From NCBI RefSeq assembly GCF_014174165.1, contig NZ_JABEQN010000008.1:1-64000 (forward strand): 64,000 bases of DNA, read 5' to 3'. Made by a program: the position numbers and the translations under genes. A model generated the notes under the pieces. It was not told the origin of the DNA. It saw nothing but the letters and a program-made list of their open reading frames with translations, and did no database searches. The stretch is from Gluconacetobacter dulcium. GTDB lineage: Bacteria; Pseudomonadota; Alphaproteobacteria; Acetobacterales; Acetobacteraceae. The number at the start of each line of letters is the position of its first letter. Positions within the stretch are counted from its first letter, which is position 1. Below are positions 37,746-60,094 of the stretch, one piece after another.

Positions 37746-37835
37746 ATGACATTCGAACTTGTCCTTGCGGGCGGGGTGACGGTCGGCCTTCTGGCCTATG
37801 TCGCCGCCGTGCTGCTGCATCCTGAAAGGTTCTGA
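37746..37835 (+). CDS. kdpF: KdpF, small stabilising subunit of the K+-ATPase
   Basis: The 29-residue single-helix peptide ([20 protein letters not shown], then VLLHPERF) has the usual KdpF ending. It is 4 bases upstream of kdpA. It stabilises the KdpABC complex in the inner membrane. Confidence 0.85.
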
Positions 37836-37839
37836 CGCC

Positions 37840-39546: not shown

Positions 39547-39560
39547 GAGGCGGATCCTCC

Positions 39561-41636: not shown

Positions 41637-41647
41637 GGAGGTCCATC

Positions 41648-42268
41648 ATGACGATCGTGCGCACCATACGGCCCGCGCTGGTGGTTTTTCTGTTCCTGTC
41701 GGTTGTGACGGGCATAGTGTATCCGCTGGCGATGACGGGGGTGGCCGGATATGTGCTGCCGCGCCAGGCGGGGGGCAGTCTGGTGATGAAGGGGGACAGG
41801 CTGGTGGGGTCCACGCTGATCGGCCAGGATTTTGCCGATGCGCGCTATTTCCACGGCCGTCCCTCGGTGACCGTGGGGCCGGACCCGGCCGATCCGTCGA
41901 AGACGGTGGCGCAGCCCTATAATGCGGCGGCTTCGATGGCGTCCAATGCCGGGCCGACATCGCGGGCGCTGGTGGAGCGGGTGGCGGCGGCGGTTTCGCG
42001 GCTGAAAGCCGACAATCCGGAAGCGGTGCTGGCGGGATTGCCGGTGCCGATGGATCTGGTGACGAGTTCGGGCAGCGGGCTCGATCCCGATATCTCGCCG
42101 CAGGGCGCGCTGTTTCAGGTCGCGCGGGTGGCGCGGGTGCGGCACCTGCGCGAGGAGACGGTGCGGGCGCTGGTGGACCGCATGGTCGAACGCCCGCTGA
42201 TGGGCTGGCTGGGCGAGCCGCGCGTGAACGTGCTGGAACTGAACCTGGCCCTCGATACGTTGCATTGA
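41648..42268 (+). CDS. kdpC: KdpC, K+-ATPase accessory subunit
   Basis: The 206-residue product has one N-terminal membrane helix (ALVVFLFLSVVTGIVYPLA), then YFHGRPS and a C-terminal VNVLELNLAL. LVTSSGSGLDPDISPQGALF is the family hallmark. It increases the K+ affinity of the complex. Confidence 0.97.
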   Translation: MTIVRTIRPALVVFLFLSVVTGIVYPLAMTGVAGYVLPRQAGGSLVMKGDRLVGSTLIGQDFADARYFHGRPSVTVGPDPADPSKTVAQPYNAAASMASNAGPTSRALVERVAAAVSRLKADNPEAVLAGLPVPMDLVTSSGSGLDPDISPQGALFQVARVARVRHLREETVRALVDRMVERPLMGWLGEPRVNVLELNLALDTLH

Positions 42269-42276
42269 GCTGAACG

Positions 42277-44964
42277 ATGGACACGCGCCCCGATCGCCCC
42301 GACCCTGATGCTTTGCTGCGCCGTACGGAAAAGGAGGACGCGGCGCGTGCCAGGGGGCGGCTGAAGATCTTTCTCGGCGCGGCACCGGGTGTTGGCAAGA
42401 CGTTCGAGATGCTGACGACGGGCCACCAGTTGCTGCGCGACGGGGTGGACCTGGTCGCCGGGGTGGTGGAAACGCATGGGCGGGCGGAGACGGCCGCGCT
42501 GCTGGACGGCCTGGAGGTGGTACCGGGCCGGGCGATCGCCTATCGCGGGCGGACGGTGTGGGAGATGGACCTGGATGCGATCCTGGCCTGTCATCCGCGC
42601 GTGGTGCTGGTGGACGAACTGGCGCATACCAACGTCCCCGGCTCGCGGCACCCGAAACGCTGGATGGATGTCGAGGAACTGCTGGCCGCCGGAATCGACG
42701 TGCTGACGACGGTCAACATCCAGCATCTGGAAAGCCTGAACGACGTCGTGGCCGCCATTACCCGCGTGCGGGTGCGCGAGACGGTGCCGGACAGCGTGAT
42801 CGACGGCGCCGACGAGGTGGAACTGGTCGATCTGACGCCCAACGACCTGTTGCAGCGCATGCGCGACGGCAAGATCTATGCCGAGCAGACGGCCCGGCGG
42901 GCGATGCTGCATTATTTCTCGCCCGGCAACCTGACGGCCCTGCGCGAACTGGCGCTGCGCCAGACCGCGCAGCAGGTGGATGCGCAACTGGTCGACCACA
43001 TGAAGGCCAATGCCATTTCCGGCCCCTGGGCGGCGGGGGAGCGGATATTGGTCTGCCTGACGTTGCAGGACCATGATGCCAGCCTGCTGCGCTATGCGCG
43101 GCGGCTGGCCGACCGGCTGCATGCGCCCTGGATCGTGCTGCATGTCGAGACCAGCCGCGACCTGACGTCGGACGCACGGACGCGTATGGCCACGCAGATG
43201 CATCTGGCGCAGTCGCTGGGCGCGGAGACCGTGACCATCCCTGGCCAGGATGTGGCGCTGGATGCGCTGGCCTATGCCCGCGCGCAGAACGTGACGCAGA
43301 TCGTGGCGGCGCACCCTGCCGGCAGGGGCTGGGGCGGGCGGCTGCGCCAGTGGTTCGGCCGGGCGACGACCGAGCGGCTGATCCAGTGGGCGGACGGGTT
43401 TCCGGTGCATGTGGTGCCGCGATCGGAAGCTGGCGAGCCCGATCTGGCCGGGGCGCCCCCGGCGCGGGCGCGGCGTGTTGGCCCCTATCTGGCCAGCACG
43501 CTGATCGTGGCCTGCGCACTGGCGGTGGCGCTGCTGCTGCGGCAGGGGTTTGCGGTCAGCAATGTGTCGCTGGCGTTTCTGACCGCGATCCTGGGTGCGG
43601 CGGTGGCCTACGGGCTGGGGCCGTCGCTGTGGGCGTCGGTCCTGGGGATGCTGTGCTTCAATTTCTTCTTTCTGCCGCCGCTCTACACTTTGACGATCGC
43701 GGCGCCGGACAATGTGGTGGCGCTGTTCTTCTTCTTCGCCACGGCGGTGATTGCCAGCAATCTGGGCGCGCGGGTGCGCAATCAGGCGGTGGTGGCGCGG
43801 CATCGGGCCGAGATCACGCAATCGCTCTATCTGTTCAGCCGGACGCTGGCGGGGATCGGGACGCTGGACGATCTGCTGTGGGGGGCCAGCCATCAGATCG
43901 CCACCGTGCTGGACCGCAAGGTGGTGATGCTGCTGCCTGTGGACGGGCGGCTGTCGGTGCAGGCGTCGTACAATTCCGGACAGCGGATCGGCGAGGAGGA
44001 TCTGGCGGCGGCGACCTGGGCGTGGAAGCATGACAAGGTGGCCGGCCGGGGTTCGGACAACCTGCCGGGCACGCGCTGGCTGTTCCTTCCGATGCGGACC
44101 GGGCGCGGGCCGGTCGCGGTGATCGGGCTGGATACGGACCGCGACGGGCCGATCCTGGATGCCGAGCAGCAGCGCCTGCTGGATGCGCTGGCCGACCAGA
44201 CGGCATCGGCCGTCGAGCGGATCACGCTGGCCCGGGACCTGGACCAGGCGCGGCTGAATGCGGAAACCGACAAGCTGCGGGGAGCGCTGCTGACCTCGAT
44301 CTCCCACGATCTGCGTACGCCACTGTCGGCGATCCTGGGGGCGGCGTCGAGCCTGGACAGTTACGGCGATACGATGGGGCCGGAGGACCGGCACGACCTT
44401 CTGGCGACCATTCGCGACGAGGCCGAACGGCTGAACCGGTTCGTCGCTAACCTACTGGACATGACGCGGCTGGAGGCCGGAGCGCTGCGGCCCCGCCGGG
44501 AGCCGGTCGATGTGGCGGAAATCGTGGCGAGCGCGCTGGGGCGGGCGGCGCGTATCCTGGCCGATCACCGCGTTGAACTGGAGATGGAACCCGAACTGCC
44601 GATGCCGCTGCTGGATGACGTGCTGCTGGAGCAGGCCCTGTTCAATGTGCTGGACAATGCCGGAAAGCACACGGCGGCGGGCACGCGGATCGTGATCCGG
44701 GCGGCGTTGCGGCCGGAAGGGCTGGTGCTGGAGGTGCTGGATGAGGGGAGCGGGCTGGCCGTGGAGGACACCGAGCAGGTGTTCGGCAAGTTCCAGCGCT
44801 TTCTTTCCGCCGATCGCGCGCGGGCCGGGACCGGGCTGGGGCTGGCCATTGCGCGTGGGTTCGTCGAGGCCATGGGCGGCACGATCGTTGCACGAAACCG
44901 GCGCGACCGGCAGGGTGCGGTCTTTGTCATGACCTTTCCGTTGGAGGCGAGGGGAGCGGTGTGA
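42277..44964 (+). CDS. kdpD: KdpD, osmosensitive K+ channel sensor kinase
   Basis: The 895-residue product has the N-terminal KdpD domain with Walker A GAAPGVGKTFEML and ELAHTNVPGSRHPKRW (residues ~20-230), a universal stress protein-like domain (~250-370), four membrane helices (~395-500), GAF (~520-650), HisKA with SISHDLRTPLSAILGA (~670) and a HATPase domain ending GTGLGLAIARGFVEAMGG. It senses K+ limitation and phosphorylates KdpE. It overlaps kdpE by 4 bases. Confidence 0.97.
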   Translation: MDTRPDRPDPDALLRRTEKEDAARARGRLKIFLGAAPGVGKTFEMLTTGHQLLRDGVDLVAGVVETHGRAETAALLDGLEVVPGRAIAYRGRTVWEMDLDAILACHPRVVLVDELAHTNVPGSRHPKRWMDVEELLAAGIDVLTTVNIQHLESLNDVVAAITRVRVRETVPDSVIDGADEVELVDLTPNDLLQRMRDGKIYAEQTARRAMLHYFSPGNLTALRELALRQTAQQVDAQLVDHMKANAISGPWAAGERILVCLTLQDHDASLLRYARRLADRLHAPWIVLHVETSRDLTSDARTRMATQMHLAQSLGAETVTIPGQDVALDALAYARAQNVTQIVAAHPAGRGWGGRLRQWFGRATTERLIQWADGFPVHVVPRSEAGEPDLAGAPPARARRVGPYLASTLIVACALAVALLLRQGFAVSNVSLAFLTAILGAAVAYGLGPSLWASVLGMLCFNFFFLPPLYTLTIAAPDNVVALFFFFATAVIASNLGARVRNQAVVARHRAEITQSLYLFSRTLAGIGTLDDLLWGASHQIATVLDRKVVMLLPVDGRLSVQASYNSGQRIGEEDLAAATWAWKHDKVAGRGSDNLPGTRWLFLPMRTGRGPVAVIGLDTDRDGPILDAEQQRLLDALADQTASAVERITLARDLDQARLNAETDKLRGALLTSISHDLRTPLSAILGAASSLDSYGDTMGPEDRHDLLATIRDEAERLNRFVANLLDMTRLEAGALRPRREPVDVAEIVASALGRAARILADHRVELEMEPELPMPLLDDVLLEQALFNVLDNAGKHTAAGTRIVIRAALRPEGLVLEVLDEGSGLAVEDTEQVFGKFQRFLSADRARAGTGLGLAIARGFVEAMGGTIVARNRRDRQGAVFVMTFPLEARGAV

Positions 44965-45650
44965 GCGATCCGTGCGTACTGATCGTCGATGACGAGCCGG
45001 CTATCCGGCGCCTGCTGCGGACGACGCTGGGCAGCCAGTCCTGGCGGACGCTGGAGGCGGCGACCGGTGCCGCCGCGCTGCGGATGGCCGTGGAGGAGCA
45101 TCCCGATATCGTGCTGCTGGATCTGGGATTGCCGGACCTGGACGGTGCCGAGGTGCTGCGGCGCATGCGCGCGGACAGGCCGGATCTGCCGGTCGTCATC
45201 CTGTCGGTGCGTGACGACGAGCGCGGCAAGGTGGCCGCGCTGGAAGCGGGCGCGGACGATTACGTGACCAAGCCGTTCAGCATGGCGGAACTGATCGCCC
45301 GGCTGCGCAATGCGATGCGGCATGCGTTGCAGCAGCAGGGTACCGTGCCGGTCTTCGTCTCGGCCGATCTGCGCGTCGATCTGGTGCGGCGGCAGGTCTT
45401 TCGGGGGGAGGAGGAAATCCGGCTGTCGCCGCGCGAGTGGGATATCCTGCGGATGCTGGTGCAGTATGCTGGTCGTGTCCTGACGCATCAGACCATCATG
45501 GGCCAGCTCTGGGGGGCCAGTGGCGATGTGCAGCAACTGCGCGTCTATATCCGCCAGATCAGGCAGAAGATCGAAAACGATCCGGAGCGGCCACGGCATA
45601 TCGTGACCGAAACGGGCGTGGGGTACCGGCTGGTGCAGTCACAGGGGTGA
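44961..45650 (+). CDS. kdpE: KdpE, OmpR-family response regulator
   Basis: The 229-residue product has a receiver domain with DDEP at the start, phosphoacceptor D in LLDLGLPDLDG and K in YVTKPFS. The C-terminal winged helix has LSPREWDILRMLVQYAG and HIVTETGVGYRL. It activates kdpFABC transcription when phosphorylated by KdpD. Confidence 0.97.
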   Translation: MSDPCVLIVDDEPAIRRLLRTTLGSQSWRTLEAATGAAALRMAVEEHPDIVLLDLGLPDLDGAEVLRRMRADRPDLPVVILSVRDDERGKVAALEAGADDYVTKPFSMAELIARLRNAMRHALQQQGTVPVFVSADLRVDLVRRQVFRGEEEIRLSPREWDILRMLVQYAGRVLTHQTIMGQLWGASGDVQQLRVYIRQIRQKIENDPERPRHIVTETGVGYRLVQSQG

Positions 45651-47891: not shown

Positions 47892-48217
47892 TCGCGCCGC
47901 CTGACAGCAGGCCAAATCGCCGCACGTCCTCGGCGGGGCGCTACAACGGTTCGCGAGCAGATCGGTGATGCCCTGTTCGCCCGGAAGACGCCGGCTCCAC
48001 TGCCCGTGGATATGTGCATCGTCCTGCGGACCGCGCTCTGCCCGTGGACAGTCCGTGGACAACGTGACGTTGCCCACAGATTGCCCACCGGCGCCACGCT
48101 CGACACACATCTCCACCGGCACACCAGCAGCAGGATCTTGTATTTATTAACTTGGCGTTTACCAAGATGCAGCAGCCTTAGGCTGCGGCATCTCCTGTCC
48201 CAATTCCGAGCAGAGCC

Positions 48218-48487
48218 ATGAGCAAAGCATTTATCGCCGCCGTCCTTCAGGATTCCCTCGACTGCACCGGCGTTGCAGCCGCCAGGGGCGCCGACGCACT
48301 CCTGGGCGCGATCGTCGCCGAACTGCAGCACGAGGGAAGCTTTACGTTACCGTCCTTCGGAACATTCACGGTGCGCGAGACCAACGCACGCCAGGCGCTC
48401 AACCCCCGCACCGGCGAGCCCGTCTCGGTCGAGGCAGGGCGGACGGTCCGCTTCAAGGCCAGCCCGCTGCTCAAGAAGGCGGTCTGA
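48218..48487 (+). CDS. HU-family nucleoid protein
   Basis: The 89-residue product has the HU core FTLPSFGTFTVRETNARQAL and NPRTGEPVSV with a C-terminal RFKASPLLKKAV. The proline-containing arm (NPRTG) should insert into DNA. As a plasmid-borne HU it likely helps organise the replicon or substitutes for host HU. Confidence 0.93.
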   Translation: MSKAFIAAVLQDSLDCTGVAAARGADALLGAIVAELQHEGSFTLPSFGTFTVRETNARQALNPRTGEPVSVEAGRTVRFKASPLLKKAV

Positions 48488-48490
48488 TTG

Positions 48491-49306
48491 ATGCGAGGGA
48501 CCGGGAGTGGGCCGATAATCCCCAGCCCGCCTCTGGTCCTGGTCGTCCGCCCGCGCTGCGCGCCTGACGCACCGCAACTCGCGCGGATCCTGATCAATCA
48601 GGAAGAGAGCCGTATCCGCGACGAAGCTGGTGCGGTCGTCCGAGCTAAGCTGACCATCACCTTTCGCCGTCTCGCCGACCAGCCGGGTCGCCACCCATAC
48701 CCGACCCGGCGGTTCATGGCATGCTACGCACGGCAGTGGGACGACGGCGCCCGCATCAGCCTGACCTCGCACTACCCGACAGGGGGCGCGGTCTTTCTCG
48801 ACCTGGAGGGGCTGGAGGGCAACCGGATCGGCTCCTTCCTGATGAATCTGGTCCTCACCTGGGCCCGGCAATGGCCGGACGCCGAGGTGAATCCGATCAC
48901 CCTGCTTGCGCATCAGGCACATGGCGACAATACGATCCGGCGCAACCGGTTCTACGAGCAGTTCGGCATCGTGTTCGCCTATACGGACGATACCAGGGCA
49001 GCGGGTACCGCCAGGGAAATGCGCGCCGGCGAACTGCGACCCTGGGAGCACCTGCCGGAGAATCTGTCGGTGCTGCCGCTCGAGGCGGCGTTCGACGAGC
49101 AGCAGCGCGAACTCGCCGCCTTGCGTCAGTCCCAGCAGACCATGCAACTGCGCGACCGGGCTCTCCGTGGTGAGCTCCAGCGCGCGATGGCGCATCCACT
49201 GCGCTTCGCCGCCCGGCAGATCTGGTATCGTCACGCCCCGCTGCTGGTCGGCACGGCATCACTCGCGGTCCTCGGCAGCCTCTCCCTGCTGGCGCGAGCG
49301 CGCTGA
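48491..49306 (+). CDS. hypothetical membrane-tethered protein, GNAT-like
   Basis: ATG 48491 (TTG 48488 is also possible) gives a 271-residue product. The centre contains FLDLEGLEGNRIGSFLMNLV, then AHGDNTIRRNRFYEQFGIVF, which resembles the acceptor loop and helix of acyltransferases. A hydrophobic helix (LLVGTASLAVLGSLSLLA) sits at the C-terminus. It starts 3 bases after the HU gene. Its 3' end overlaps the convergent DUF1612 gene by 48 bases. Function not established. Confidence 0.55.
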   Translation: MRGTGSGPIIPSPPLVLVVRPRCAPDAPQLARILINQEESRIRDEAGAVVRAKLTITFRRLADQPGRHPYPTRRFMACYARQWDDGARISLTSHYPTGGAVFLDLEGLEGNRIGSFLMNLVLTWARQWPDAEVNPITLLAHQAHGDNTIRRNRFYEQFGIVFAYTDDTRAAGTAREMRAGELRPWEHLPENLSVLPLEAAFDEQQRELAALRQSQQTMQLRDRALRGELQRAMAHPLRFAARQIWYRHAPLLVGTASLAVLGSLSLLARAR

Positions 49307-50392
49307 CCCGCCCCGCCCTCCCGGCCCCCAAAGACCCAGGGCGTCCAGTCGGCTACCCGCATTGCGCACCGCCTGATCCGCCGCCGCCATCGCCGCCTCG
49401 AGATCCGCATAATCCGGCTGCCAGCGCGCCAGCGGTGACAAGGTAGCCGGCACCGACGCTTCCTCGACTGCCGACGCACGGATCCGGCCGCCGCCGCGCC
49501 GCGCCCGACGCGGTAGGGCCACCTCCTCGGCCAGCGGCGCCAGGCCCTTCAGCCCGAACAGCCGGCGCGCGCTGCGATGCGTGACCTCGACCACGACGCC
49601 CTGGTCAGCGAACCGGTCGAGCAGCGCCAGCGCGTTCTTCGGCGCCATCCGCAAGCAGCCGGCCAGGGTGCCGGCCGAGATCAGCGGCGCCGCCGCGATC
49701 AGATCCAGCGCCGCCGGCGCCCGCGAGTTGCTGCGTCGGCCGGTCGCCACGATCTGGCGCGCCTGGCGCCACGCCTGTTCCAGCAGCCCGAGCTGGCGCA
49801 GCCCGTCGCGCGCCTCCGCGGCCAGCGCCTGCAGGAAGAGCGGTGCCCACGCGGCAAAGCCCCACGGCACGTCCGCCTGCAAAGCAGCTGCCCCGGTCAG
49901 CGGCAGTGCCGTCCGCAACAGCGTGGTGCCGAGATGACGGACGATCGCGGTGCGCATCGCCGGCCGCGCGTGACCGGCCTCGAGCCAGTCATGCAGCCCG
50001 CGGGCGACCCCCAGCAGCGGGCTCTCCGTGAGCGCGCCACGCGCGAGGACTGCCATCGCCTCCTGCACCGCGCCCTCCTGGTCGAAATCCGGCGCCACCA
50101 GCCACTGATATTGGGCGAAGGCATAGCGGGCCGCTTCGAACACCCCGCCACGGTCCGCGTTGCCGAGGCGCAGCGGCAGATGCTCGATCACCGCGGCCAG
50201 GTGCCACGGGTCGATCGCATAGCCGTCGACCGCCGCCTGCCGGCGCACCGCATCCAGGCGCATTCGGTGCAACACCGCCGGCAGCAGCGGATGGCCGTGC
50301 AATGCCTGGTCGAGCCGGCCGAGGGCGAATGCCGCGCGCTCCAATGCCACACCGAATTCGTCGGCCGTCAGGCTCCGTCCCTCGTCCCGCAT
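49259..50392 (-). CDS. DUF1612-type plasmid protein (RHE_PE00001 family)
   Basis: The 377-residue product has an N-terminal LDQALHGHPLLPAVLHRMRL and DAVRRQAAVDGYAIDPWHLA. A central alanine-rich helical domain follows. The C-terminus has LDRFADQGVVVEVTHRSARR and LFGLKGLAPL, the signature of this rhizobial plasmid family with a helix-turn-helix. Its role is unknown, perhaps regulation of plasmid transfer or maintenance. It converges on the GNAT-like gene. Confidence 0.8.
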   Translation of the reverse strand: MRDEGRSLTADEFGVALERAAFALGRLDQALHGHPLLPAVLHRMRLDAVRRQAAVDGYAIDPWHLAAVIEHLPLRLGNADRGGVFEAARYAFAQYQWLVAPDFDQEGAVQEAMAVLARGALTESPLLGVARGLHDWLEAGHARPAMRTAIVRHLGTTLLRTALPLTGAAALQADVPWGFAAWAPLFLQALAAEARDGLRQLGLLEQAWRQARQIVATGRRSNSRAPAALDLIAAAPLISAGTLAGCLRMAPKNALALLDRFADQGVVVEVTHRSARRLFGLKGLAPLAEEVALPRRARRGGGRIRASAVEEASVPATLSPLARWQPDYADLEAAMAAADQAVRNAGSRLDALGLWGPGGRGGSARSRQQGEAAEDRE

Positions 50393-50404
50393 CGCCGTCC
50401 CGTC

Positions 50405-51688
50405 CTAGATTACGGGTGCCGGCGCAGCTCCAGGGCCCGCTTTCGGAGTTGCCGACCGCGGCAGGTCAATCTGCCGTATCTCTCTCGGCGTTGGCGCGAC
50501 CGCCCGCACCAAGCCGACAGCCCCCTCCGCGCTTCCGGCCGACCCGCCCCAGAGCATCCCCGGCATCAAGGCGGAAATGGTGCCGGCCCAGTACCCCAGA
50601 TCGCCCAACGGGATCACCATGCCGATATCCGTTTCTTCCGGAGAAAGCGCCTGCGCCAGAATGTCGACAAAAGGCAGACTGTCGGCACTTGCGTTTGTTC
50701 CGCCAGCAGGGCCAAGCGCCTTGAGCACCGAGATGGCCCACGGCGATCGGGCGTCGCCGTACGGCCATTGGACATAGTAGCACCAGCCACCGAAGCCGGC
50801 GTCCTGATTCTGTCTCCAGCCATGCAACTCCGCTGCGAGAAAGGCCGTGCTCTGCTGATAGCTATAGGCCGGGACGAACAGAGAACTCTTCCCCTGATGG
50901 CACGCGATATGCCAGCGGTCTTTTTCTCCAAGCCATTCAAAGATCTGGTCCCGAGGGCATCCCCTTGCCAGCGCCCGCTTGATCACGTCCAGCGCCCGCT
51001 TTTGCGAATATGCCGAAGCCTCGTTTTCGGGGGGCGTTTCCGGCATGCCGTCATGCACCGTATGGTCGAGACGAAGATCTTCGAACCGCTGTCCTTGCTG
51101 CGGGCGCTTGGCCTGGAACAGAGTAAGTTTCACCATGCCACCATCGAGGTCGGTGACGATGCCGAAATCGCCGCCGGTACGCGGTTCATCGCTTCGCTTC
51201 TTCTGATGCGCCCAATAGCAGCCGGCCGCCGGAGGCCCTTGCGAAGAGCCGGCGTCGTCTGGCGCCAGCAGCGTGACCATGCTCAGCGCATTGGCCAGCA
51301 GGCCGAACAGGGCGGCGGTCTGCGGCTCTTCATCGACCCTCTGCGGCCCGAGCAACATCACCTGGTTGCGCACCGCCAGATGAGCCGCCAGACGCGACAG
51401 CGTCGCCCGCCAGGCCTTGTCCCGGGCGGCAAGGCCGGCGGAGCACGCAGTTTCTGCATCCTCCCCCATCTCGATCGCCTCACCGCTCGCAAGAGAGAAA
51501 GCCTGTTCTGGTCTTTGCAAACGATCGGCCGCTAGATTCGACAGCGAGGGGGTCCATCTCTTGCCGTCCGCCGGTGTCGCAAGCAAGGCATCCAACGCAG
51601 CAGCCAGTAGATCGAGCGGATGCGTCGGCGGGAGGAAGGCTTGTTGTTCTGGCATGCGTAATCTCGAGCTTGAGGTGGAGTCGTCCAT
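50405..51688 (-). CDS. nuclease-like protein with QxK motif, unknown
   Basis: The 427-residue product has no close relative known to me. The segment GGDFGIVTDLDGGMVKL and LTLFQAKRP (D174, Q192, K194) has the beta-hairpin acid followed by QxK that occurs in PD-(D/E)xK-type nuclease folds. The C-terminal half is aromatic-rich (GGWCYYVQWPYGD). It sits downstream of the UDG-like gene on the same strand and close to a large nuclease-like gene, so it may belong to a defence locus. The nuclease call is inference from a short motif. Confidence 0.6.
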   Translation of the reverse strand: MDDSTSSSRLRMPEQQAFLPPTHPLDLLAAALDALLATPADGKRWTPSLSNLAADRLQRPEQAFSLASGEAIEMGEDAETACSAGLAARDKAWRATLSRLAAHLAVRNQVMLLGPQRVDEEPQTAALFGLLANALSMVTLLAPDDAGSSQGPPAAGCYWAHQKKRSDEPRTGGDFGIVTDLDGGMVKLTLFQAKRPQQGQRFEDLRLDHTVHDGMPETPPENEASAYSQKRALDVIKRALARGCPRDQIFEWLGEKDRWHIACHQGKSSLFVPAYSYQQSTAFLAAELHGWRQNQDAGFGGWCYYVQWPYGDARSPWAISVLKALGPAGGTNASADSLPFVDILAQALSPEETDIGMVIPLGDLGYWAGTISALMPGMLWGGSAGSAEGAVGLVRAVAPTPREIRQIDLPRSATPKAGPGAAPAPVI

Positions 51689-51696
51689 TTCACATT

Positions 51697-51779
51697 TTTT
51701 AGATAATGAGATAGGTATTTTTTATAAATCAATTTGTTAGATCGATTTTTATTTTATGAGACTCTTTTAGATAATGAGA
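51697..51779. promoter_or_regulatory. direct repeats upstream of the QxK gene
   Basis: TTTTAGATAATGAGA occurs at 51697-51711 and again at 51765-51779, with a related TTTTATGAGAC between them. The tract is AT-rich (51690-51780), ends 8 bases before the minus-strand ATG at 51688, and probably holds the promoter and an operator of that gene. Confidence 0.55.
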
Positions 51780-51871
51780 CTGCAGGATGCGGAGAGACCG
51801 GCACCTTCTACACGTCAGATTAGAGGGGGTAACCGGATAGTCGGTTACCGAGAAAGGATGACCGTCCGCAG

Positions 51872-52666
51872 TCATGCAGCCAGGCCCGGCAGGAGGCGGG
51901 AGATCTGTCTACGTAGACGCTCTCTCGCTGCATCGATCGGGCCTGGGACGGTCTTTGCCGAGAGATCGGCCCGCATCTTCTCGCCAAGGAAATACGCGAT
52001 CCGCTCTCCGTTCGCGCCACTCGGATGTGGCATGCCTTCGAGAACCTTCTCTGCCTTCAGATCGCCGCGCCTCACCAGATGAGCCAGTGCCTCCGTCGGT
52101 TTCGGCCCAAGTGGTAGCCAGAGAGCATCAGGCAGCAGCCGAGCCTCTTCCGCGAGAATCTCCTCGACCATCCCGCGTAGCATCGGTGTGCCGAGCATCG
52201 CCGGGGTTCCGTTATAATTCTCGCCCCGGACAAACACGGGATAACGGAGAGCCGATGTCATATGAACAAACTCGTGCTGCGACGTAAAGAGATCCGCGCA
52301 GCTTGAAACGCCGAAGGCATGATGAAGCGTCAGGAAGTCGAGCATACGCACAATATTGTTTCTCATGCCCCCGCTGAAACTGCCGGTCAGTTTTGCGGTC
52401 CGCAGCGCTTCTTCCTGTCCGGCGCCTGCTTTCAACGTCTCGCCGAAGGCGGTGAGCGCGTTCACAGCCTGAGTGCGGCCGGGCGTAATGCCGCAGATGA
52501 CCAGCCGGGCCGTCTTCGGTGTGTAGTCAAATGGCGCCCAGGTCGTCGTGACGTTGCCGCTCGTCCCGAGCAGCAAAGAGCCGTCGTCCAGCAGTGAAGC
52601 CGGAGAGCAGGCGTCACGCACAAGAGTGCCGATGCGTGCGAGGTCGACATTAGTGAGAATGCTCAT
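51872..52666 (-). CDS. uracil-DNA-glycosylase-superfamily-like protein
   Basis: The 264-residue product has GITPGRTQ (residues 59-66), placed like the water-activating loop of UDG enzymes, and MPHPSGANG with H214-P-S-G, the counterpart of the HPSP(L) loop. Both motifs are variant, so activity against uracil is uncertain. It is upstream of the QxK gene on the same strand, separated by 183 bases. It could remove modified bases or sense foreign DNA. Confidence 0.65.
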   Translation of the reverse strand: MSILTNVDLARIGTLVRDACSPASLLDDGSLLLGTSGNVTTTWAPFDYTPKTARLVICGITPGRTQAVNALTAFGETLKAGAGQEEALRTAKLTGSFSGGMRNNIVRMLDFLTLHHAFGVSSCADLFTSQHEFVHMTSALRYPVFVRGENYNGTPAMLGTPMLRGMVEEILAEEARLLPDALWLPLGPKPTEALAHLVRRGDLKAEKVLEGMPHPSGANGERIAYFLGEKMRADLSAKTVPGPIDAARERLRRQISRLLPGLAA

Positions 52667-53581
52667 GACGTTTTCGAATCCTGAAGTAATCTGAAGAAGA
52701 TGGTAGGGTCCAGATCAGGCGCGGTTTATTCGCTTGGTCCGATGGCCCGCCAGGATGATCCGTCCCTCGTCGCTGACGACGAGAATACCGGTTGTGTGCC
52801 CATACAGACCGCAACCTAGCCCCCTCGGGAATGGCAGCCTTCCAGAAATAGCTTATGTTAGTTCGAGGTCTGAAATGAGGCCTCTGCCACCTATCCGCTC
52901 CACGTTTCTTCAGCGGACAGGCAGTTCAGCGGGGGGGAACGGAAAGTCCGGTTCCGGATGTAAACGTGGAAAACCGGACATTCAGGACTGCGAAATAATC
53001 GCAAATACAGTTCCCGCTCGATTATTGATATCCGCACAAAAACCATATTTATCAGTTAATTGCAAAATTCTAAACCAATAACGCCATGATTGATACCATA
53101 CTTCGAGATAAATACCCGTAACTGCTCTCTCTTTCTGTTCAACAACGATTCGTCATGACTACAGGCGGACCTTTGAAGTATGGCCGGACCTGGAACAAGC
53201 CCGTCATTCCCGCCCGGCTCACCAAATGTCGGCTTCCGACACGAGCCGACAATCACGCGTTCGGCCACCTTGGCTCGTTGAACGAGCAAGGCTGGCCGCT
53301 TTATGCTCTGGCGGGTTTCGGACGCACCGGGGTGGCTTGCAGACATTCGTTCATTGGGCCGCAGTGTTCCGCATCATGATAATAGCTGCTTGTGCTGGAC
53401 CCTCATGAAACAGCGACGCAAAAAGGCGCCGACGGGAAGCCTCGTGCAAATGGCAGCGCAATCGACTACAGGGCAATCACGCGCCGGTCCAATAAATGAC
53501 AGGGTTCACGTGGTAGGCTAGACCTTGCGAGGAGGAGATCTGACCCGGTCGCCTTCGCCCCTCTCGAAGGACGGCCACTCG
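52667..53581. other. intergenic region without convincing genes
   Basis: About 900 bases contain only short open frames of 60-115 codons with no recognised motif or ribosome-binding site. AGGAGGAG at 53529-53536 lies 45 bases upstream of the chosen start at 53582 and may mark an alternative non-ATG start. No repeats were seen. Confidence 0.5.
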
Positions 53582-56500
53582 ATGTCCCGCTTTTCAAGCT
53601 TCCAATATGCGCCGAGCGAGACGCGCCAAATTCTTCGGGATCGCTTCTCGCGCAAACTCCGCGTTTCGCGGCAGGATCACTATCGCGACCCGAATCTTGC
53701 CTACACGCCCGACGTCGTGGCCCTGCGTCTCCTTCAGGAGATGACGATATCGCCGGCCTCCGCCTGGTCCGCCGTCGAGGCCGCCTACGGCTTGGACGGG
53801 GTCTGTCCGGACGAGGCGGCCACTCTACCAGACCTCGTGTCGTCCGGCGGTGCGCGCGTGGTCTGGGGAAGAGTCAAAATCTCGCAGGACATCGCGGTCA
53901 GGGCGCTACGCGCGCCCGACGGCGAGATGGACGCCCTGAAGGCGCTCGCGAAAGGCATCCACGGTCAGACGTTCGGGTTCGACACGGATTTCGGGGCGGA
54001 CGCCGAGTTGCGCGCTCTGTCCGAAGATATTGTTGCGGGCCAACTGGATCCGCATCATCTCGTCGTGCGCAGTCCGGCCTGGGTCGCCGAACGGCTTTGG
54101 GAATCTGTTCGCGGCCAAGCGATCTCAGTCGAGGTCGCCTTGCGCCGCTGGATTGATCTCTGGGGCGTGCTCGAATATCCCGACATCGTCCCCGAGCGGG
54201 CTTGGGGGCCGGGTGACGCCGCCACCTTTAGAGAGGCAGCGCTTGGCTTGATCGGATCAGAACCGGCGCTGGCCGGCTGGATCGAAACCCGTGACCTCTA
54301 TGTCCGGCAAGCGGCGTTCGCCCATAACGTCACGGTCGCCAACGCCGAGTGCCACATCCCGGCACCGCCGAGCACGGCCGTCTGCCGCGCGCTTTGGCTG
54401 GAGAGCCGGGCCGTCGAAGGCAGCGCCTACGGATCACTGGATGATTGTGGCGCCCTGTTCGGATTAGCGCGGGTGCTCCTAGCCGACGTCGATGCGCAGA
54501 ACAACGCCAAGGCCCCGCACCCCATGGCCGCTGCGCTGTTCGACCTCGCTCTTGACCGGCCCGAACTCTTCAATGCCGTGCTGCATCAGGCGCGGAGCCA
54601 TCCGCGGTTGCTCGCCGACCTTGTGCTGCATCCGCCCACGGCCGCACTCGCCTGTCTCTTGATCGCCCAGTGGCGTCATCCAGGCGGCGCCTGGGAACGG
54701 GCCCTCACTGAGGCGGATCATCAGGTTGGACAGGCCGACGCCTTCGCCGATGGCGTCGCGATTTTGGGAGAACACCTGCGGCGCGACGCAATCCCCGTGG
54801 GCGAGGCGGCGGCGCTGCTGAGCTGGTTGCATCGCCGCGCCGGGCCCGGGTTTGTCGATGACGTCGCCGGGGCAGACTTGCTAATGGCGAGCCTGCGCCG
54901 GGAGTTGGCAATGTGCCCCGCGCCCGTTCTGTTGGCCATGACGGGGTCTCTGCGGGGACCGGCCCTAGACCAGGGATTGGGCGCGCCGGAATTCGCCGCA
55001 GTCCTGGACCTTTGCGACCTTGGGAACCTGACGGACGACGTGGATCCCGAGGGAGTGATCGCCGCCTATGAAGGCGCCTTTCAGGCCGACCACTACAGTC
55101 TGTCGGCCTACCGTGTGGACGCCGCCGGCGCGGCGGCCTTGGCCCGCCTGAGCGAGCGAACCGAGGATCTGAGAAAGCGCTTCCTCTACCCGTTGCACCT
55201 TCGCGCTCGTCTAGCCGCCGCTCCGCCGGACCAAAATCCGTTTACGCTCGCCGATGCTCTCGGCCGGTCGGTCCGCGTTCATATCCGCATCCTGTGCCGC
55301 GCAATCGTCGGCGGTCCCCTCGACACAACCAGCGACCTCTTGGAAGCGCTGGTCGACGCTGTTCGGTCCGGTGCGCTGGAGCATAAGGAAAAGGGGCGCG
55401 TCGCGGCTTTCGCGCCGAGCTTTGAAAACACGTTGATCCGCACGCCACGCGATCGCCCGCTGTCGAGCGACCTGACGGCGGCTCTTGGGTGCCTGAACCC
55501 CGCGGCGCAGGTCTCCCTGCTGGACGCGATCCTGGAAACCGACGAGCCTTTGATCCTCGCGCAGATCTTGCCGAACGTGCCGCCGAACCTCCGCGCGCGC
55601 GTCGAGCAGCGGATCGCAGCGCTCGCGCCTGACGCCGCCGCCGAGATTCGATCTTTGCCCGAGATGCACGCCCGCATCGATCAGCTGCTGACCATCGGGG
55701 CGGCCGACGCCGCAGCGAGTTATATGGCCGCCGAAAGGAACCTGAAGATGTTGGGCAAACCTGCCGGCCGGGAACTGACTCGCTTTCGCAATGAGCTGCG
55801 GCTGGCGTTTCTGAAGCAAGATTGGGACGCGATCACGCATGCGCCGCAACCGGCCTTCACCGCCCGGCTGGAACAGGCATCAGCCCTCGAAACCCTGCAG
55901 CAATTTCGCGGCCTCGTGGCGCTGGTAGGGCCCAACTCCGACCCAGTGGTGGCGAAGGCGGTGTTCGCCAAACTCTTCGCGAAACGGAACTCCCTGATCT
56001 TCGCCACCAACTGGTTCGCTGCTGCCATCAGCGAACTCTTGGTCGACGACAGCTTCGGTCTCTTAGCGGGTCCCAACGTCCGGCTCGGTCGCCAGGTGCT
56101 CGCCGAGCTCGACCGCATGGTCGCCTTGTTGCCGAAGGGGCCGCCCGACGAAGTCCTGGAGTGCAATCGCGCGCAGTTGCTGCTGGCGCTGGGCGAACCC
56201 GGCCAGGCCTCGGCGACGCTATCCAGCGTGCCGCTGACGCGTCTTCACGCCGTCGCCGCCGCCTATCGCGCTGTCGCCTTTGCCCGCTTGGGTCATCCGG
56301 CCGAAGCCACGGCGGCCTTGGACGGCGCCGAGTTTCGGTTCGGCGCGACGCCCATCCTCACCGCGGCGCGGGCGCACATCGCCAGCGGGGCGGCGTTCCT
56401 CGCCTTGCCCGAAGTCTCCGCTTACGACAACCTCGTGGACAATGTCGGGTCGGCGATCGCGCGTTTCCGGCTGATGGGCCCGCAACAGCAGGCCCGGGTG

Positions 56501-57181
56501 CTTCGTCCGCAGTCAGACGCCTTCGAGGCACTGCTGATCGACTATGTGCGCGCGGCGGCCGACGCGGTCGTGTCCCTGGTCCCCATGATGAAGGGCGTCG
56601 ATATCGACGCCATTGAAGACGATCTGAATGCCTTCGTGCAGCATCTGTTGGCGGCGCGCGTCCAATTCCTCGGCTGGTCGGTAAACGACCAGTCGAAGGG
56701 GGGCTACAGCGCGAACGCCAACGCCGGCGAGCGCGACATCATCCTCACCAGCGGCAGCACCATTCTGGCGATCGTCGAAGCGCTCAAATGCAAGAGCGCG
56801 CTGACCCAGGACGTCGTGAGAGCGGACCTGGAAAGCCACTTCCAGAAACTATTGGGCTACGGCAACCCACGGATCTTCTTCCACCTGACCTACGCCTACA
56901 TCGACGTTGGCGAGGTCATCGCCTTCCTCGGGACAGCGGCCGAGACGGCGTGCCCGCCGGGCTTCAAATATCTCGGCCAAGAGAAGATTCGCCATGAAGA
57001 TTCACGGCCGCCGGGCTTTGTTGCCCGCTATGACGCCGACTTCGGCGAGGTGAAGGTCGTTTTTCTAGTGCTAAACATGGGCCAAGACCGCCAGCGCAAT
57101 GCTGGGATCACAGCGGGGAAGACGAAGGCTCGGAAAGCGACCAAGGAAGGAGGGAGGAGGGAGGGAAGAGCAAGGCGGTGA
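53582..57181 (+). CDS. ~1200-aa protein with C-terminal nuclease-like domain
   Basis: The start at ATG 53582 (MSRFSSFQYAPSETRQILRD) has GAAGGA about 11 bases upstream; TTG 53525 would extend by 19 residues. The first ~750 residues are helical with no recognised domain. Residues ~850-1010 have TPR-like helical repeats (AQLLLALGEPGQASATLSS). The C-terminal block has GGYSANANAGERDIIL (D1052) followed by LAIVEALKC (E1066, K1069) and HFQKLLGYGN. This resembles PD-(D/E)xK-like domains at the ends of large defence proteins. No Walker motif is seen. The tail is basic. Defence is the leading hypothesis, not proven. Confidence 0.72.
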   Translation: MSRFSSFQYAPSETRQILRDRFSRKLRVSRQDHYRDPNLAYTPDVVALRLLQEMTISPASAWSAVEAAYGLDGVCPDEAATLPDLVSSGGARVVWGRVKISQDIAVRALRAPDGEMDALKALAKGIHGQTFGFDTDFGADAELRALSEDIVAGQLDPHHLVVRSPAWVAERLWESVRGQAISVEVALRRWIDLWGVLEYPDIVPERAWGPGDAATFREAALGLIGSEPALAGWIETRDLYVRQAAFAHNVTVANAECHIPAPPSTAVCRALWLESRAVEGSAYGSLDDCGALFGLARVLLADVDAQNNAKAPHPMAAALFDLALDRPELFNAVLHQARSHPRLLADLVLHPPTAALACLLIAQWRHPGGAWERALTEADHQVGQADAFADGVAILGEHLRRDAIPVGEAAALLSWLHRRAGPGFVDDVAGADLLMASLRRELAMCPAPVLLAMTGSLRGPALDQGLGAPEFAAVLDLCDLGNLTDDVDPEGVIAAYEGAFQADHYSLSAYRVDAAGAAALARLSERTEDLRKRFLYPLHLRARLAAAPPDQNPFTLADALGRSVRVHIRILCRAIVGGPLDTTSDLLEALVDAVRSGALEHKEKGRVAAFAPSFENTLIRTPRDRPLSSDLTAALGCLNPAAQVSLLDAILETDEPLILAQILPNVPPNLRARVEQRIAALAPDAAAEIRSLPEMHARIDQLLTIGAADAAASYMAAERNLKMLGKPAGRELTRFRNELRLAFLKQDWDAITHAPQPAFTARLEQASALETLQQFRGLVALVGPNSDPVVAKAVFAKLFAKRNSLIFATNWFAAAISELLVDDSFGLLAGPNVRLGRQVLAELDRMVALLPKGPPDEVLECNRAQLLLALGEPGQASATLSSVPLTRLHAVAAAYRAVAFARLGHPAEATAALDGAEFRFGATPILTAARAHIASGAAFLALPEVSAYDNLVDNVGSAIARFRLMGPQQQARVLRPQSDAFEALLIDYVRAAADAVVSLVPMMKGVDIDAIEDDLNAFVQHLLAARVQFLGWSVNDQSKGGYSANANAGERDIILTSGSTILAIVEALKCKSALTQDVVRADLESHFQKLLGYGNPRIFFHLTYAYIDVGEVIAFLGTAAETACPPGFKYLGQEKIRHEDSRPPGFVARYDADFGEVKVVFLVLNMGQDRQRNAGITAGKTKARKATKEGGRREGRARR

Positions 57182-58011
57182 AGTCAAGTCAGCGGCTCAG
57201 ACTGATAGCACGGTGGATTCTTAACCGTGGCCACCTCGGGATGGGCGGAGACGAATCCTCGAGCTCCTTAAGCGATGCCCGCTACGGGGAAGCGCTGGGC
57301 TGCACTCCGGGGGGGCGAAAGGGAGGGCGTAAGCGGAATTCAACCACGCAGGGCTCGGACGCTTCCCCAAGCGTGGCGGGGCCGTACCTTTATGCGGGCG
57401 GCCCTGAACGCGAACGTCGTTAATCACCCCGATGTTGCACAGAATCAATGATGCCGAAGCGAGCAGGGTCGCGCATGTCGAGGATGACCTGCTGATTCAG
57501 GAACGCGGCGTCACCGACAATCCCCGCGGTGCCTCGCAGGGAAACGGTCGGCTGCAGGCTCTCCGGCAACTCGTAGATCAAGGGGGGCTCACTATTTTCG
57601 GCCCGAGGGTGATAGTGCCCGTAATCAGCTTGCCCGGCATGTGCAGCAAGGTCCCCTCATAAGCACGTCCGTTCAGCGGAGGCCGACATCCACGCACGCT
57701 CTTGGGCGCTTGAAATGGGACGGAAAACCGCGATTTTCCGGCAAAACGCCGCGACGGGAATGCGTGGCCGGGACAGTTCAGGAGGCGCGCTATCGGGGAG
57801 CTACAGATCCAGTCCCATCAAGTGAAGGAAACGACAACAACGGCAGTCATATTACGCTAATTTGTCTTTAAGGTAAATCTCGGCGGACGCTCCGAACTCC
57901 GCCCCCTCCTCCGCCTCTACTTCCGATAATGTCCCTTGTCGGATGTAGGTGGCGGGCCGGGCCGTTCGCTGCTAAACCACGCTGAACCGCCGCAATGGAG
58001 GCCCGCAGCCG
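57182..58011. other. intergenic, possible gene remnant
   Basis: No intact gene is visible. On the minus strand between 57660 and 57440 a frame reads LQPTVSLRGTAGIVGDAAFL then VILDMRDPARFGIID, a coherent fragment with no start. It may be the end of a decayed gene of unknown family. A short GC-rich region precedes the gene at 58012. Confidence 0.35.
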
Positions 58012-58668
58012 ATGCCGAACACGCTTCTGTCTTCCATCAGCATCCGGGGCCTGGCCTACCAATCCGGGCTGGCCGCGGAGACCGCAGAGGCCGGCCTGAA
58101 CGCCGAACTGAGCGGCAAACGGCAGGCGCTGGACGCCTACGACGCCACACCCGGCTTTATCGGCGAACGCGAAGACGGGCATATCCTGTGGGAGCTGGAT
58201 CAGGTGCTCGAGATGGACGTCGCGCGCCTGGAGGAAGCGTTGCCCGATCTGCGCCGCGCCTTCGCGCTGTCAGCCTACCACTACTGGGAGACCGCCGTTT
58301 ACCGCTGGCATCACCAGGAGCACGGAAAAGCTGCCAAGAAGAGGCTTGGAGCACACGATGACCTCGTCGAAGAGATCCGCAGGCTCGCGCAGAACGCACC
58401 CGATCTCTCGTTCAGTGTCCACCCCGACCTCGAGGCCGTCGCCAAGCTGGCAAACGTCCTCAAACATACCAGCGCCGATTCATGGCAATGGCTGATCGGG
58501 CAGTGCCCGGAACCATTGAAGCCCCTGTTCCCGGCACCCTCGGACCGACACACGCCGGTGATGCTGACAGTCGCCCAACTCGCCTGGGTGTTCGAGGTGG
58601 TCAGCCAGTCAGGCCCGGCCGGCTACCCCGGCGGTGCCGGCGCGCCGAGGACAAGCGATGCTCAGTGA
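58012..58668 (+). CDS. hypothetical protein coupled to integrase
   Basis: The 218-residue helical product (SSISIRGLAYQSGLAAETAE, and HILWELDQVLEMDVARLEEAL) has no recognised motif. The integrase start lies inside its last codons (overlap 11 bases), so it is translated together with the recombinase and may be an accessory factor such as a directionality or regulatory protein. Confidence 0.6.
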   Translation: MPNTLLSSISIRGLAYQSGLAAETAEAGLNAELSGKRQALDAYDATPGFIGEREDGHILWELDQVLEMDVARLEEALPDLRRAFALSAYHYWETAVYRWHHQEHGKAAKKRLGAHDDLVEEIRRLAQNAPDLSFSVHPDLEAVAKLANVLKHTSADSWQWLIGQCPEPLKPLFPAPSDRHTPVMLTVAQLAWVFEVVSQSGPAGYPGGAGAPRTSDAQ

Positions 58669-60094
58669 CATCCGGATCCTCGGCTCCCGCGCCGCTGCCC
58701 GACGCACGGTCGCTGCGCGGGTCGATCGCCTCACCCGCAGCCGCCTCGACCTCGACCAACTGCAGCAGGCGGTGCGGGCCCTCTCGGTCGCCCGCTTCGA
58801 TCCGCCGCTCCCGCTGATCCTGGCCGGCATCGAGCAACCGGACGGCAGTTATACCGCGGACCGGCCGCTCGCCCCTGCCCTGCCCCACGCCGCCGCCGCC
58901 CTCGACGCCGCACGCGAGGCCGTTGGCGATGTCCCGGCCGGCCACGAACTGCTGATCGCCCTGGAGATCGACCAGGGCGCGCCCAGCTTCGTCGCCTGGC
59001 TGCGCCGCTGCCCGCCGGCCGGGCCGGTGCCCGACCTGGACGACAAGATGCCGCCGGCACCGGTCGGCCAGCCGGCCGCCAGCGTCGCCCAGTGGTTCGC
59101 CCTCGCCTCCAGCCAGGCAGTACCGAACCATGACGGCAGCCTGGGCACCGCCCGCAAGGCGGTGGAGGCCTTCGTCCAGCGCGGCAAGGCCGATAATACC
59201 CGCCGCGCCTACCGCGGTGCCGTGCGCGCCTGGTGCCAGTGGGCCGCCGGCCACGCCCTCCCTGCCCTGCCCGCGCGGGCCGAGGATGTCGCCGCCTATC
59301 TGGCCGACATGGCGCTGCGCAAGCGCACGCCGCGCACCATCGACCTGCATCGTGCCGCGCTGCGCTATCTCCATCACCTGGCCCGGCTCGCCATTCCCAC
59401 CAGCCATCCGCTGGTCGCCGCCACCCTCGCCGGCATCCGCCGCGAGGCGCCGGGCGCCGGCCCGCAGCAGAAGACGGCGCTGACCTGGACTCCGCTCACC
59501 CGGGTGCTCGAAGAGGTGCAGGGCGACGATCTGGCCTCGGTCCGCGACCGCGCCATCCTGCTGCTCGGCTTCGCCGGCGCCTTCCGCCGCTCGGAGCTGG
59601 CCGGCCTCACGGTGGCCGACGTCAGCGTCGACGATGACGGCATGGAGATCCGCCTGACCCGCTCGAAGGGCGATCCCAACCGAGACGGGGTGCGGGTCGG
59701 TATTCCACGCGGCATCACCCGTCACTGTCCGGTCCGCGCCTACGAGGGTTGGCTACGAGCGGCTGCAATTACCGAGGGCGCCGTGTTCCGCCGGGTATGG
59801 ATGGCCCCGGACGCCAAGGCAGGTACCCGCTCCCCGCGCCCGAAAATCGGCAGCACCGCCCTGTCCGATCGCGCGATCGCCGAGATCGTCCGCAAGCATT
59901 GCCAGGCCGCCGGGCTGGAGGGCAGCTTTGCCGGCCACAGTCTGCGTCGCGGTGCCATCAGCACCGGCGCCGGCGACGGCTACGACCTCCTCGAGCTCAA
60001 GCGCTTCTCGCGGCACCAGAGCCTGCGCATGGTCGAGACCTATATCGATGCCGCGAGCATCAAACAGCGTCACCCTGGGCGCGGTCGATTTTAA
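58658..60094 (+). CDS. tyrosine recombinase (site-specific integrase)
   Basis: ATG 58658 gives 478 residues. The N-terminal core-binding SAM-like domain has TRRAYRGAVRAWCQWAAG. The catalytic domain has R in GAFRRSELAGL, H-x-L-R in GHSLRRGAISTG, H in RHQSLRM and the nucleophile Y in VETYIDA. The ~170-residue extra N-terminal region is unusual. It likely resolves plasmid multimers or integrates the element. No attachment site was identified. Confidence 0.9.
   Translation: MLSDIRILGSRAAARRTVAARVDRLTRSRLDLDQLQQAVRALSVARFDPPLPLILAGIEQPDGSYTADRPLAPALPHAAAALDAAREAVGDVPAGHELLIALEIDQGAPSFVAWLRRCPPAGPVPDLDDKMPPAPVGQPAASVAQWFALASSQAVPNHDGSLGTARKAVEAFVQRGKADNTRRAYRGAVRAWCQWAAGHALPALPARAEDVAAYLADMALRKRTPRTIDLHRAALRYLHHLARLAIPTSHPLVAATLAGIRREAPGAGPQQKTALTWTPLTRVLEEVQGDDLASVRDRAILLLGFAGAFRRSELAGLTVADVSVDDDGMEIRLTRSKGDPNRDGVRVGIPRGITRHCPVRAYEGWLRAAAITEGAVFRRVWMAPDAKAGTRSPRPKIGSTALSDRAIAEIVRKHCQAAGLEGSFAGHSLRRGAISTGAGDGYDLLELKRFSRHQSLRMVETYIDAASIKQRHPGRGRF

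Follow-up and report, generated by a model that had tools for sequence, protein, structure and literature searches.

Upx is a single-gene PD-(D/E)XK system. DSR2 is described as a SIR2 protein that recognizes the phage tail tube. Effectors with the restriction-endonuclease fold, Mrr-like ones among them, have been described in bacterial conflict systems (Kaur et al., PMC7159879), and the principle of such effectors is already known. Here we compare with these systems a 1199-residue protein of Gluconacetobacter dulcium, encoded in a stretch of 64,000 nucleotides (positions 1 to 64,000 of contig NZ_JABEQN010000008.1, hereafter "the window"). An earlier note, made from the sequence alone, had singled out this protein as a possible undescribed single-gene anti-phage system with a nuclease-like C-terminus. 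That observation is confirmed and its interpretation partly supported. On balance, we lean toward the view that the protein is a one-protein anti-phage sensor-effector (more broadly anti-invader, and in prophages acting in superinfection exclusion) with a PD-(D/E)XK-variant nuclease. It would resemble DSR2 in working principle only, as one large chain holding both sensor and effector; DSR2 differs in using a SIR2 NADase effector, and we claim no sequence relation between the two.

The gene is read on the forward strand from an ATG at 53582 to a stop codon that ends at 57181, giving the single giant gene of about 1200 residues that the earlier note had proposed. A TTG at 53525 is the upstream limit of the same open frame, and the proteins of two viral-contig relatives (L042 and L043) start at the residue equivalent to the ATG at 53582. 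The open reading frame (ORF) is not due to chance, because 200 mononucleotide shuffles of window positions 50001–60000 gave one-strand open frames of at most 513 codons, and because a relative is under constraint. This relative, L009, lies on a 6.8-kb contig of a metagenome-assembled genome, is likewise 1199 codons long and is 89% identical to the window gene. Given a rate of nonsynonymous change (dN) of 0.058 against a synonymous rate (dS) of 0.194 between the two, purifying selection acts on the gene.

Conservation is concentrated in a C-terminal module. In an alignment of 18 copies, most of them only ~20–25% identical to the window sequence, nine residues are invariant: E1012, Q1037, G1041, G1049, D1052, E1066, H1086, K1089, and Y1093. 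The close pairs window/L009 and L042/L043 were counted separately in this alignment, which leaves out L040, L025 and L026 (both close to L012), and L041 (on the same contig as L037). Between the window and L009, the module has 4 amino acid changes in 163 codons (dN/dS ~0.05), compared to dN/dS values of ~0.2–0.4 in blocks of the body. Similarly, identity to L042 is 54% in the module versus 28–44% in body blocks, and identity to L032 is 36% versus 20–27%. A P-loop-like GxSxSGKS string lies between module strands 1 and 2 in L037 and L039 (by scan) and in L012, L023, and L038 (by eye). This string is found in neither the window protein nor the rest of the alignment, and we treat it as incidental rather than as a P-loop of the family.

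On sequence evidence, this module is a separable unit to which sensors have been joined in at least three ways, the window protein being one, because the same module occurs with an AAA ATPase partner, on LRR-Roc-COR proteins (LRR, leucine-rich repeat), and on proteins with the helical body. The last ~165 residues of the window protein match ORF333 of prophage P2-EC5 in a phage collection (E 4e-5; 31% identity over 147 residues), and ORF333 has all nine invariant residues. It is preceded by ORF555, an AAA_15/AAA_21 ATPase by Pfam that resembles the PADLOC models NsnB, HEC-03B, and PDC-M55A. The pair is thus a two-gene arrangement with an ATPase on the sensor side, whereas the window protein has neither an ATPase domain nor an ATPase among the neighbors scanned. 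At the DNA level, the ORF555–ORF333 pair is present in 4 of 5426 Escherichia coli genomes, and in the one genome whose flanks were read, a P2-like prophage carries it, with the replication endonuclease gene on one side and the portal gene on the other. This location corresponds to the position between gpA and gpQ that is published as a defense hotspot of P2 prophages (PMC9122126), and the pair therefore sits in that hotspot. The module is also paired with an ATPase on a Vibrio plasmid (ATPase by annotation) and in genome G653 (ATPase by eye).

The LRR-Roc-COR (Roco) proteins, L022 and L023, come from Spirosoma and from Photobacterium plasmids. Like the window protein, they are large single chains that end in the module, but their sensor consists of LRR, Roc GTPase, and COR domains (LRR, Roc, COR-A, and COR-B by Pfam), none of which is found by Pfam in the window body. 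On its Photobacterium plasmid, the L023 gene (L023:3697-6435) has a TniB-like gene on one side and a TniQ gene on the other, next to type I-F cas genes; the order TnsA, Mu-type transposase, TniB, regulator, LRR-Roc-COR-module gene, TniQ, and type I-F cas looks like that of a CRISPR-associated Tn7-like transposon.

Thirteen full-length proteins of 1185–1289 residues share the plan of a long body plus the module. Five are of the window type (window, L009, L032, L042, and L043), with L042 and L043 38% identical to the window protein end to end and L032 24% identical over its whole length when L009 is the query. The other eight (L024, L033, L037, L039, L040, L112, L113, and L114) form a second type of ~1260 residues; L040, 95% identical to L033 by tblastn, is counted here but was not aligned. 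The two types agree in size, layout, and module, and their bodies show no BLAST-level similarity. Nevertheless, the bodies are homologous by profile–profile comparison of 5 with 7 sequences (hhalign; 789 columns, probability 96%, E 1.2e-9). The score of 90.7 compares to at most 21.4 in 40 shuffled profiles and to 17–18 in two reversed controls. An earlier comparison of only 3 with 4 sequences had given a probability of 4.5%, and it was the addition of members that made the match clear.

The family is found on mobile elements. L042 and L043 are viral (IMG/VR) contigs that represent lambdoid-like prophages. In L042, the gene is a lone plus-strand gene between RecT and exonuclease VIII genes (PHROGs) on one side and an S24/helix-turn-helix repressor gene (Pfam) on the other, all three on the minus strand, with a DnaB-like helicase further along; L043 has the same ORF order as read by eye. 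L037 is another viral contig, and L024 (Burkholderia pyrrocinia), L039, and L040 are plasmids on which the proteins are annotated only as hypothetical. A DUF4011/MTES_1575/DUF3320 helicase-nuclease gene is found 580 bp away from the L032 gene. No partner gene was seen in common among the single-gene members.

Several observations made beside relatives are recorded here. An ATP-dependent endonuclease gene, OLD-like by eye, lies directly upstream of the 1269-residue relative in L024 (L024:542-2650), and a toprim-domain gene lies ~2 kb upstream in L039. We rejected an OLD nuclease as a partner, because it adjoins L024 only and none stands directly beside the other relatives that were read, mostly without a profile test. 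An AAA ATPase gene (weak AAA_16) downstream of the L009 gene was likewise set aside, as it falls outside the DNA block shared by the window and L009. Two Acinetobacter plasmids match only the last ~217 residues of a ~1260-residue type protein (L038:5636-6292); this fragment adjoins an IS6-like element in the plasmid that was read, and longer copies exist elsewhere, for example in L114. The L039 relative, on an Edwardsiella IncC plasmid, is ~4.8 kb from a qnrS gene.

The distribution of family and module is that of a mobile gene, as shown by sparse matches in searches of order, class, and phylum. A whole-protein search of 394 other genomes of the order, including 12 listed genomes of the same genus, gave no credible relative, with a first pass loose enough that very distant ones could escape. 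Matches were seen in 2 of 395 genomes, namely the window itself and G186, whose 63-residue match (E 6.5e-4) we treat as chance. A housekeeping role, which the earlier note would have counted against a defense function, was rejected on this basis, no clear housekeeping homologue having turned up in the searches made. With the module profile, matches were found in 5 of 398 genomes of the phylum (including the window and a weak 41-position match in G683), in 2 of 274 of the class of G754 (both among the phylum matches), in 5 of 295 of the order of G767 (two among the phylum matches), and in 1 of 337 of the window's own class, the window itself. Nothing useful came from plasmids when the query was the window protein, its tail alone, or L032, from viral contigs when it was the window protein or the alignment of Roc-COR proteins, or from E. 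coli genomes when it was the L033 gene.

Structure prediction is consistent with a nuclease-type core in the module. AlphaFold2 was run on residues 970–1182 with six sequences, and the five models have predicted local distance difference test (pLDDT) values of 52.9–74.8, the best at 74.8 having a predicted template modeling (pTM) score of 0.76. The predicted order is helix-strand-strand-strand-helix-strand, then a helix and three strands, which is the order of the PD-(D/E)XK core. The model places D1052 at the start of strand 2, E1066 in strand 3, and H1086 and K1089 on the next helix. Thus, acidic residues on strands 2 and 3 are present in 18 of 18 copies, and the alpha-beta-beta-beta-alpha-beta core is present in prediction, but the lysine expected two residues past the second acid is missing. 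Because of this missing ExK lysine, we suggest that the module is PD-(D/E)XK-like and stop short of counting it among the canonical members. The earlier note had read such a core into a GERDIIL..EALK block. This block indeed stands at 1049–1069, and its acidic residues D1052 and E1066 hold across the 18 copies; its lysine K1069 does not, since only the window and L009 have K there, whereas 10 of the 18 copies have R.

Profile comparison of the C-terminus points in the same direction. The module aligns with Mrr_cat at an hhalign score of 22.4, which is reached by none of 150 and none of 99 shuffled profiles; D1052 falls on the Mrr Asp, E1066 on the ExK acid position, where these Mrr loci have Q, and L1068 on the lysine. 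The NTP_transf_2 comparisons score 13.3 and 11.5, values that 11 of 150 and 23 of 100 shuffles equal or exceed, and an integrase control scores 12.7, reached by 3 of 100, that is, within its shuffles. The Mrr_cat profile was built from 18 loci (the 19 best of 33 matches, with L084 dropped for in-frame stops), the NTP_transf_2 profile from 12 of 30 matches, and the integrase profile from 8 of 13. One decoy per target in the 150-decoy set has no score, and the second Mrr set comprises 99 of 100. Among eight module copies, sub-threshold nuclease matches were PDDEXK_4 in two (best E 0.02), CARF_PDDEXK in one (0.0017), and a type IIG enzyme in one (0.0042), and the candidate PDC-S26 is also among the sub-threshold matches. 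The module therefore shares with Mrr-type nucleases the order of elements and the aligned positions of the Asp on strand 2 and the acid on strand 3; it differs in lacking the ExK lysine and in having the extra invariant HxxKxxxY helix. Mrr-type nucleases have a small DNA-binding domain, where the window protein has a long helical body instead.

Other results weigh against a nuclease, or against a defense role. The Mrr match is weak on the hhalign scale (E 0.0065, probability 6%). Foldseek returned no PDB or BFVD match at E ≤ 0.001 among the best 50 of more than 1100 matches in each database, and its top PDB matches are the nucleotidyltransferases TUT7 and JHP933 (E 0.01–0.03, TM score ~0.2), with PspGI seventh (E 0.13). 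In BFVD, a restriction endonuclease ranks 15th (E 0.039, TM 0.31) and a PD-(D/E)XK protein 29th. A comparison that the earlier note had offered as a way to expose a fold unrelated to nucleases has therefore given a fitting topology but no significant structural match. The best sub-threshold Pfam match of the tail is PqqD, not a nuclease (E 0.003; 18.3 bits, with the cut-off at 23.4). It recurs in 2 of 8 module copies and is the only sub-threshold Pfam row for the whole window protein (E 0.11). The match is below the cut-off, and we set it aside. PADLOC-DB 2.0.0 gave 0 families for the window protein at E ≤ 1. The L033 and L112 genes sit amid largely metabolic genes, as read by eye, with no defense island; hence not every copy is in such an island. 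Finally, position 1068, where the ExK lysine is expected, is L, F, or V in all 18 copies, and a module that lacks this canonical residue could have no activity or be a different enzyme.

The second of these possibilities would keep the sensor-effector logic and replace the nuclease with an effector of the nucleotidyltransferase (NTase) fold, similar in type to Pol-beta or to small alarmone synthetases, whose substrate for modification would be a nucleotide or tRNA. Pol-beta nucleotidyltransferases have a GS helix, then [DE]h[DE]h, then a third acid, and E1050-x-D1052 followed by E1066 can be read as such an acidic triad. The Foldseek ranking agrees with this reading, with JHP933 at probability 0.89–0.99 over 67–80 columns and small alarmone synthetases lower down, as do BFVD matches such as Tas1 and the head of a poly(A) polymerase. 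However, all of these PDB matches have E > 0.01 and low TM scores, E1050 is retained in 16 of 18 copies and is S in the other two, no helix is predicted in the loop between strands 1 and 2 (pLDDT below 50), the NTP_transf_2 scores fall within shuffles, and neither of the two sub-threshold Pfam families is an NTase. We consider an NTase effector unlikely. The PD-(D/E)XK-like assignment is clearly favored over it, with moderate confidence.

Slightly less probable is a PD-(D/E)XK relative without catalytic activity, limited to nucleic-acid binding, with the action left to the body or to a partner protein. The uniform loss of the ExK lysine is what such a module would show, but D1052, E1066, E1012, Q1037, H1086, and K1089 are held invariant at low overall identity in the manner of an active site, and a shared partner is not seen beside the single-gene members. 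We give still less weight to a restriction-like or anti-plasmid factor that cuts incoming DNA without a separate cue, or that helps mobile elements compete or stabilizes them. Carriage on plasmids and viral contigs, the Mrr-like signature, and the tyrosine recombinase gene downstream of the window gene would all suit this role. Against it, no methylase or motor domain was found by Pfam in the 1199-residue protein or in the seven neighboring ORFs scanned, and a body of ~1000 residues exceeds the needs of a target-recognition domain.

Returning to the sensor-effector nuclease, we propose the following mechanism. Residues 1–990 would form a long helical scaffold that keeps the protein inactive and recognizes a cue of infection; phage proteins and phage nucleic-acid structures are the most likely cues. 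Once the body has recognized its cue, the C-terminal module would be released or assembled. Acting as a PD-(D/E)XK-variant nuclease, the module would bind metal through D1052 and E1066, with E1012 and Q1037 assisting, while K1089 of the HxxKxxxY helix probably stands in for the absent ExK lysine. Phage or host DNA would then be cut and infection would stop, with either abortive infection or restriction as the outcome, and prophages that carry the gene would gain exclusion of competing phages. Sensing, cleavage, and protection are steps that we infer from the architecture and settings described above. The coordinates of the corresponding features are collected in Table 1.

Table 1. Position of the gene, its parts, and the DNA shared with L009 in the window
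Feature	Coordinates	Strand	Evidence
Gene of the 1199-aa protein	53582..57181	+	ORF; relatives L009 (89% identical) and L042/L043 (38% identical)
DNA block common to the window and L009	53323..57198	+	blastn, 91% identity; gene with 259 bp before it and 17 bp after it
Helical body, residues 1–990, proposed sensor	53582..56551	+	predicted helices (low-confidence model); homology to body of ~1260-aa relatives; sensing role putative
C-terminal module, residues 1005–1168, PD-(D/E)XK-like	56594..57085	+	profile, alignment, predicted structure
E1012 codon, first helix of module, invariant	56615..56617	+	18/18 copies
Q1037 codon, end of strand 1, invariant	56690..56692	+	18/18 copies
G1049-E-R-D1052, start of strand 2	56726..56737	+	G and D invariant; E1050 in 16/18
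E1066 codon, strand 3, invariant	56777..56779	+	18/18 copies
H1086-x-x-K1089-x-x-x-Y1093, helix after strand 3	56837..56860	+	H, K, and Y in 18/18; catalytic-lysine role putative
Basic tail, residues 1169–1199	57086..57178	+	T1181, K1182, R1184, K1185, and A1186 invariant in 4/4 (L042 and L043 included)

Apart from its conserved residues, the basic tail is variable, with 13 differences in 31 codons between the window and L009. The body is predicted to be helical, as the earlier note had it, and all elements listed before residue 1063 are helices, although the full-length model is poor (pLDDT 42). The TPR-like (tetratricopeptide-like) repeats that had been proposed for it are not supported: no TPR family was found in Pfam at E ≤ 1, and a pattern scan gave 1 site versus a shuffle mean of 1.0. 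The stated lack of a Walker motif does not hold to the letter. One match to [AG]x4GK[ST] exists, AGITAGKT at 1174 in the basic tail, but no such string occurs in the aligned L009 or in the other three window-type sequences scanned, and we take it as chance and reject a P-loop ATPase. No NTPase domain of STAND/AVAST-type receptors was found in Pfam at E ≤ 1.

None of the libraries used recognizes the protein. No match above cut-off was found for the 1199-residue protein in Pfam, PADLOC, NCBIfam, or PHROGs; PADLOC likewise gave 0 families for L024, L032, and L033 at E ≤ 0.1; and the PDB searched by sequence gave no useful match (best E 0.44). Homology to Upx was not indicated by any PADLOC match, the presence of an Upx model in that library being unchecked. 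A PF14281 profile run on 60 genomes matched nothing, controls included, and is hence uninformative. Neither the module nor the family was found described in the titles and abstract openings of open-licence literature among the matches listed, and the accession numbers of six relatives were not found in open-licence papers. The earlier suggestion of an undescribed single-gene protein is supported in so far as these libraries do not recognize the protein and its family occurs in prophages and plasmids, with a module that is also joined to other likely defense sensors.

Within the window, the gene lies between gaps at 52667–53581 and 57182–58011. These correspond roughly to the noncoding flanks noted earlier, but short ORFs of 81–115 residues lie in them: 115 residues at 52734–53081, 96 residues at 53056–53346 (no Pfam match), and 81 residues at 57178–57423. 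Between 51501 and 60500, the only blastn match of L009 at E ≤ 1e-3 is the shared block listed in Table 1, and for this reason the gene appears to move, cassette-like, with hardly more than ~260 bp of upstream DNA. The nearest upstream gene is a uracil-DNA glycosylase (UDG)-like ORF at 51872–52666 on the minus strand, with a weak PF03167 match below the cut-off. Downstream, a 218-residue ORF without an accepted family precedes a tyrosine recombinase gene at 58634–60094, 1.45 kb from the gene. By Pfam, none of the seven neighboring ORFs scanned between 48.3 and 60.1 kb is an ATPase gene. An Rfam search found nothing, and 0 promoters were found.

Further observations concern the rest of the contig. 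The recombinase region 58656–60078 has a 96% identical copy in a genome of the same genus (G271:C65), where the 1199-residue protein was not found and where short stretches near 57.7–57.95 kb are also shared. Window positions 48002–51408 are conserved at 76% DNA identity in another genome of the genus (G154:C1), and the ORF at 49259–50392 has weak matches to RHE_PE00001 (NCBIfam) and SoFic (PADLOC). Beyond the window, ~15.6 kb downstream of the 1199-residue gene on the same contig, is the gene of an 817-residue TIR-domain protein (G000:C8:72821-75274, also L035:8821-11274; Pfam TIR_2, E 2.9e-13), with a 1732-residue methylase/helicase-like protein and a ParA-like gene in between. A DNA polymerase III alpha gene adjoins an ImuB-like Y-family polymerase gene at 5758–10863 on the minus strand, as in the ImuA-ImuB-DnaE2 mutasome, and a kdp potassium transport region (KdpA, P-type ATPase, KdpD, and response regulator) occupies 37798–45650.

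More tentatively, and with doubt slightly outweighing belief, we propose that these proteins form an undescribed superfamily of one-protein immune receptors borne on prophages, plasmids, and islands (1185–1289 residues in the members seen). The faster-changing helical body would sense phage, and the effector would be a PD-(D/E)XK variant whose lysine has moved to the HxxKxxxY helix. This effector would be a plug-in common to at least three sensors (helical body, Roc-COR GTPase, and AAA ATPase), with a trigger that is comparable across them.

If these proposals are correct, the window protein would add to the anti-phage families a single-gene one that escapes the libraries used, with a nuclease variant whose catalytic lysine is relocated. 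One effector placed on several sensors would provide a constant read-out while the sensor varies, such that the activation of each could be compared. It would also give a function to prophage and plasmid cargo genes that are now labeled hypothetical.

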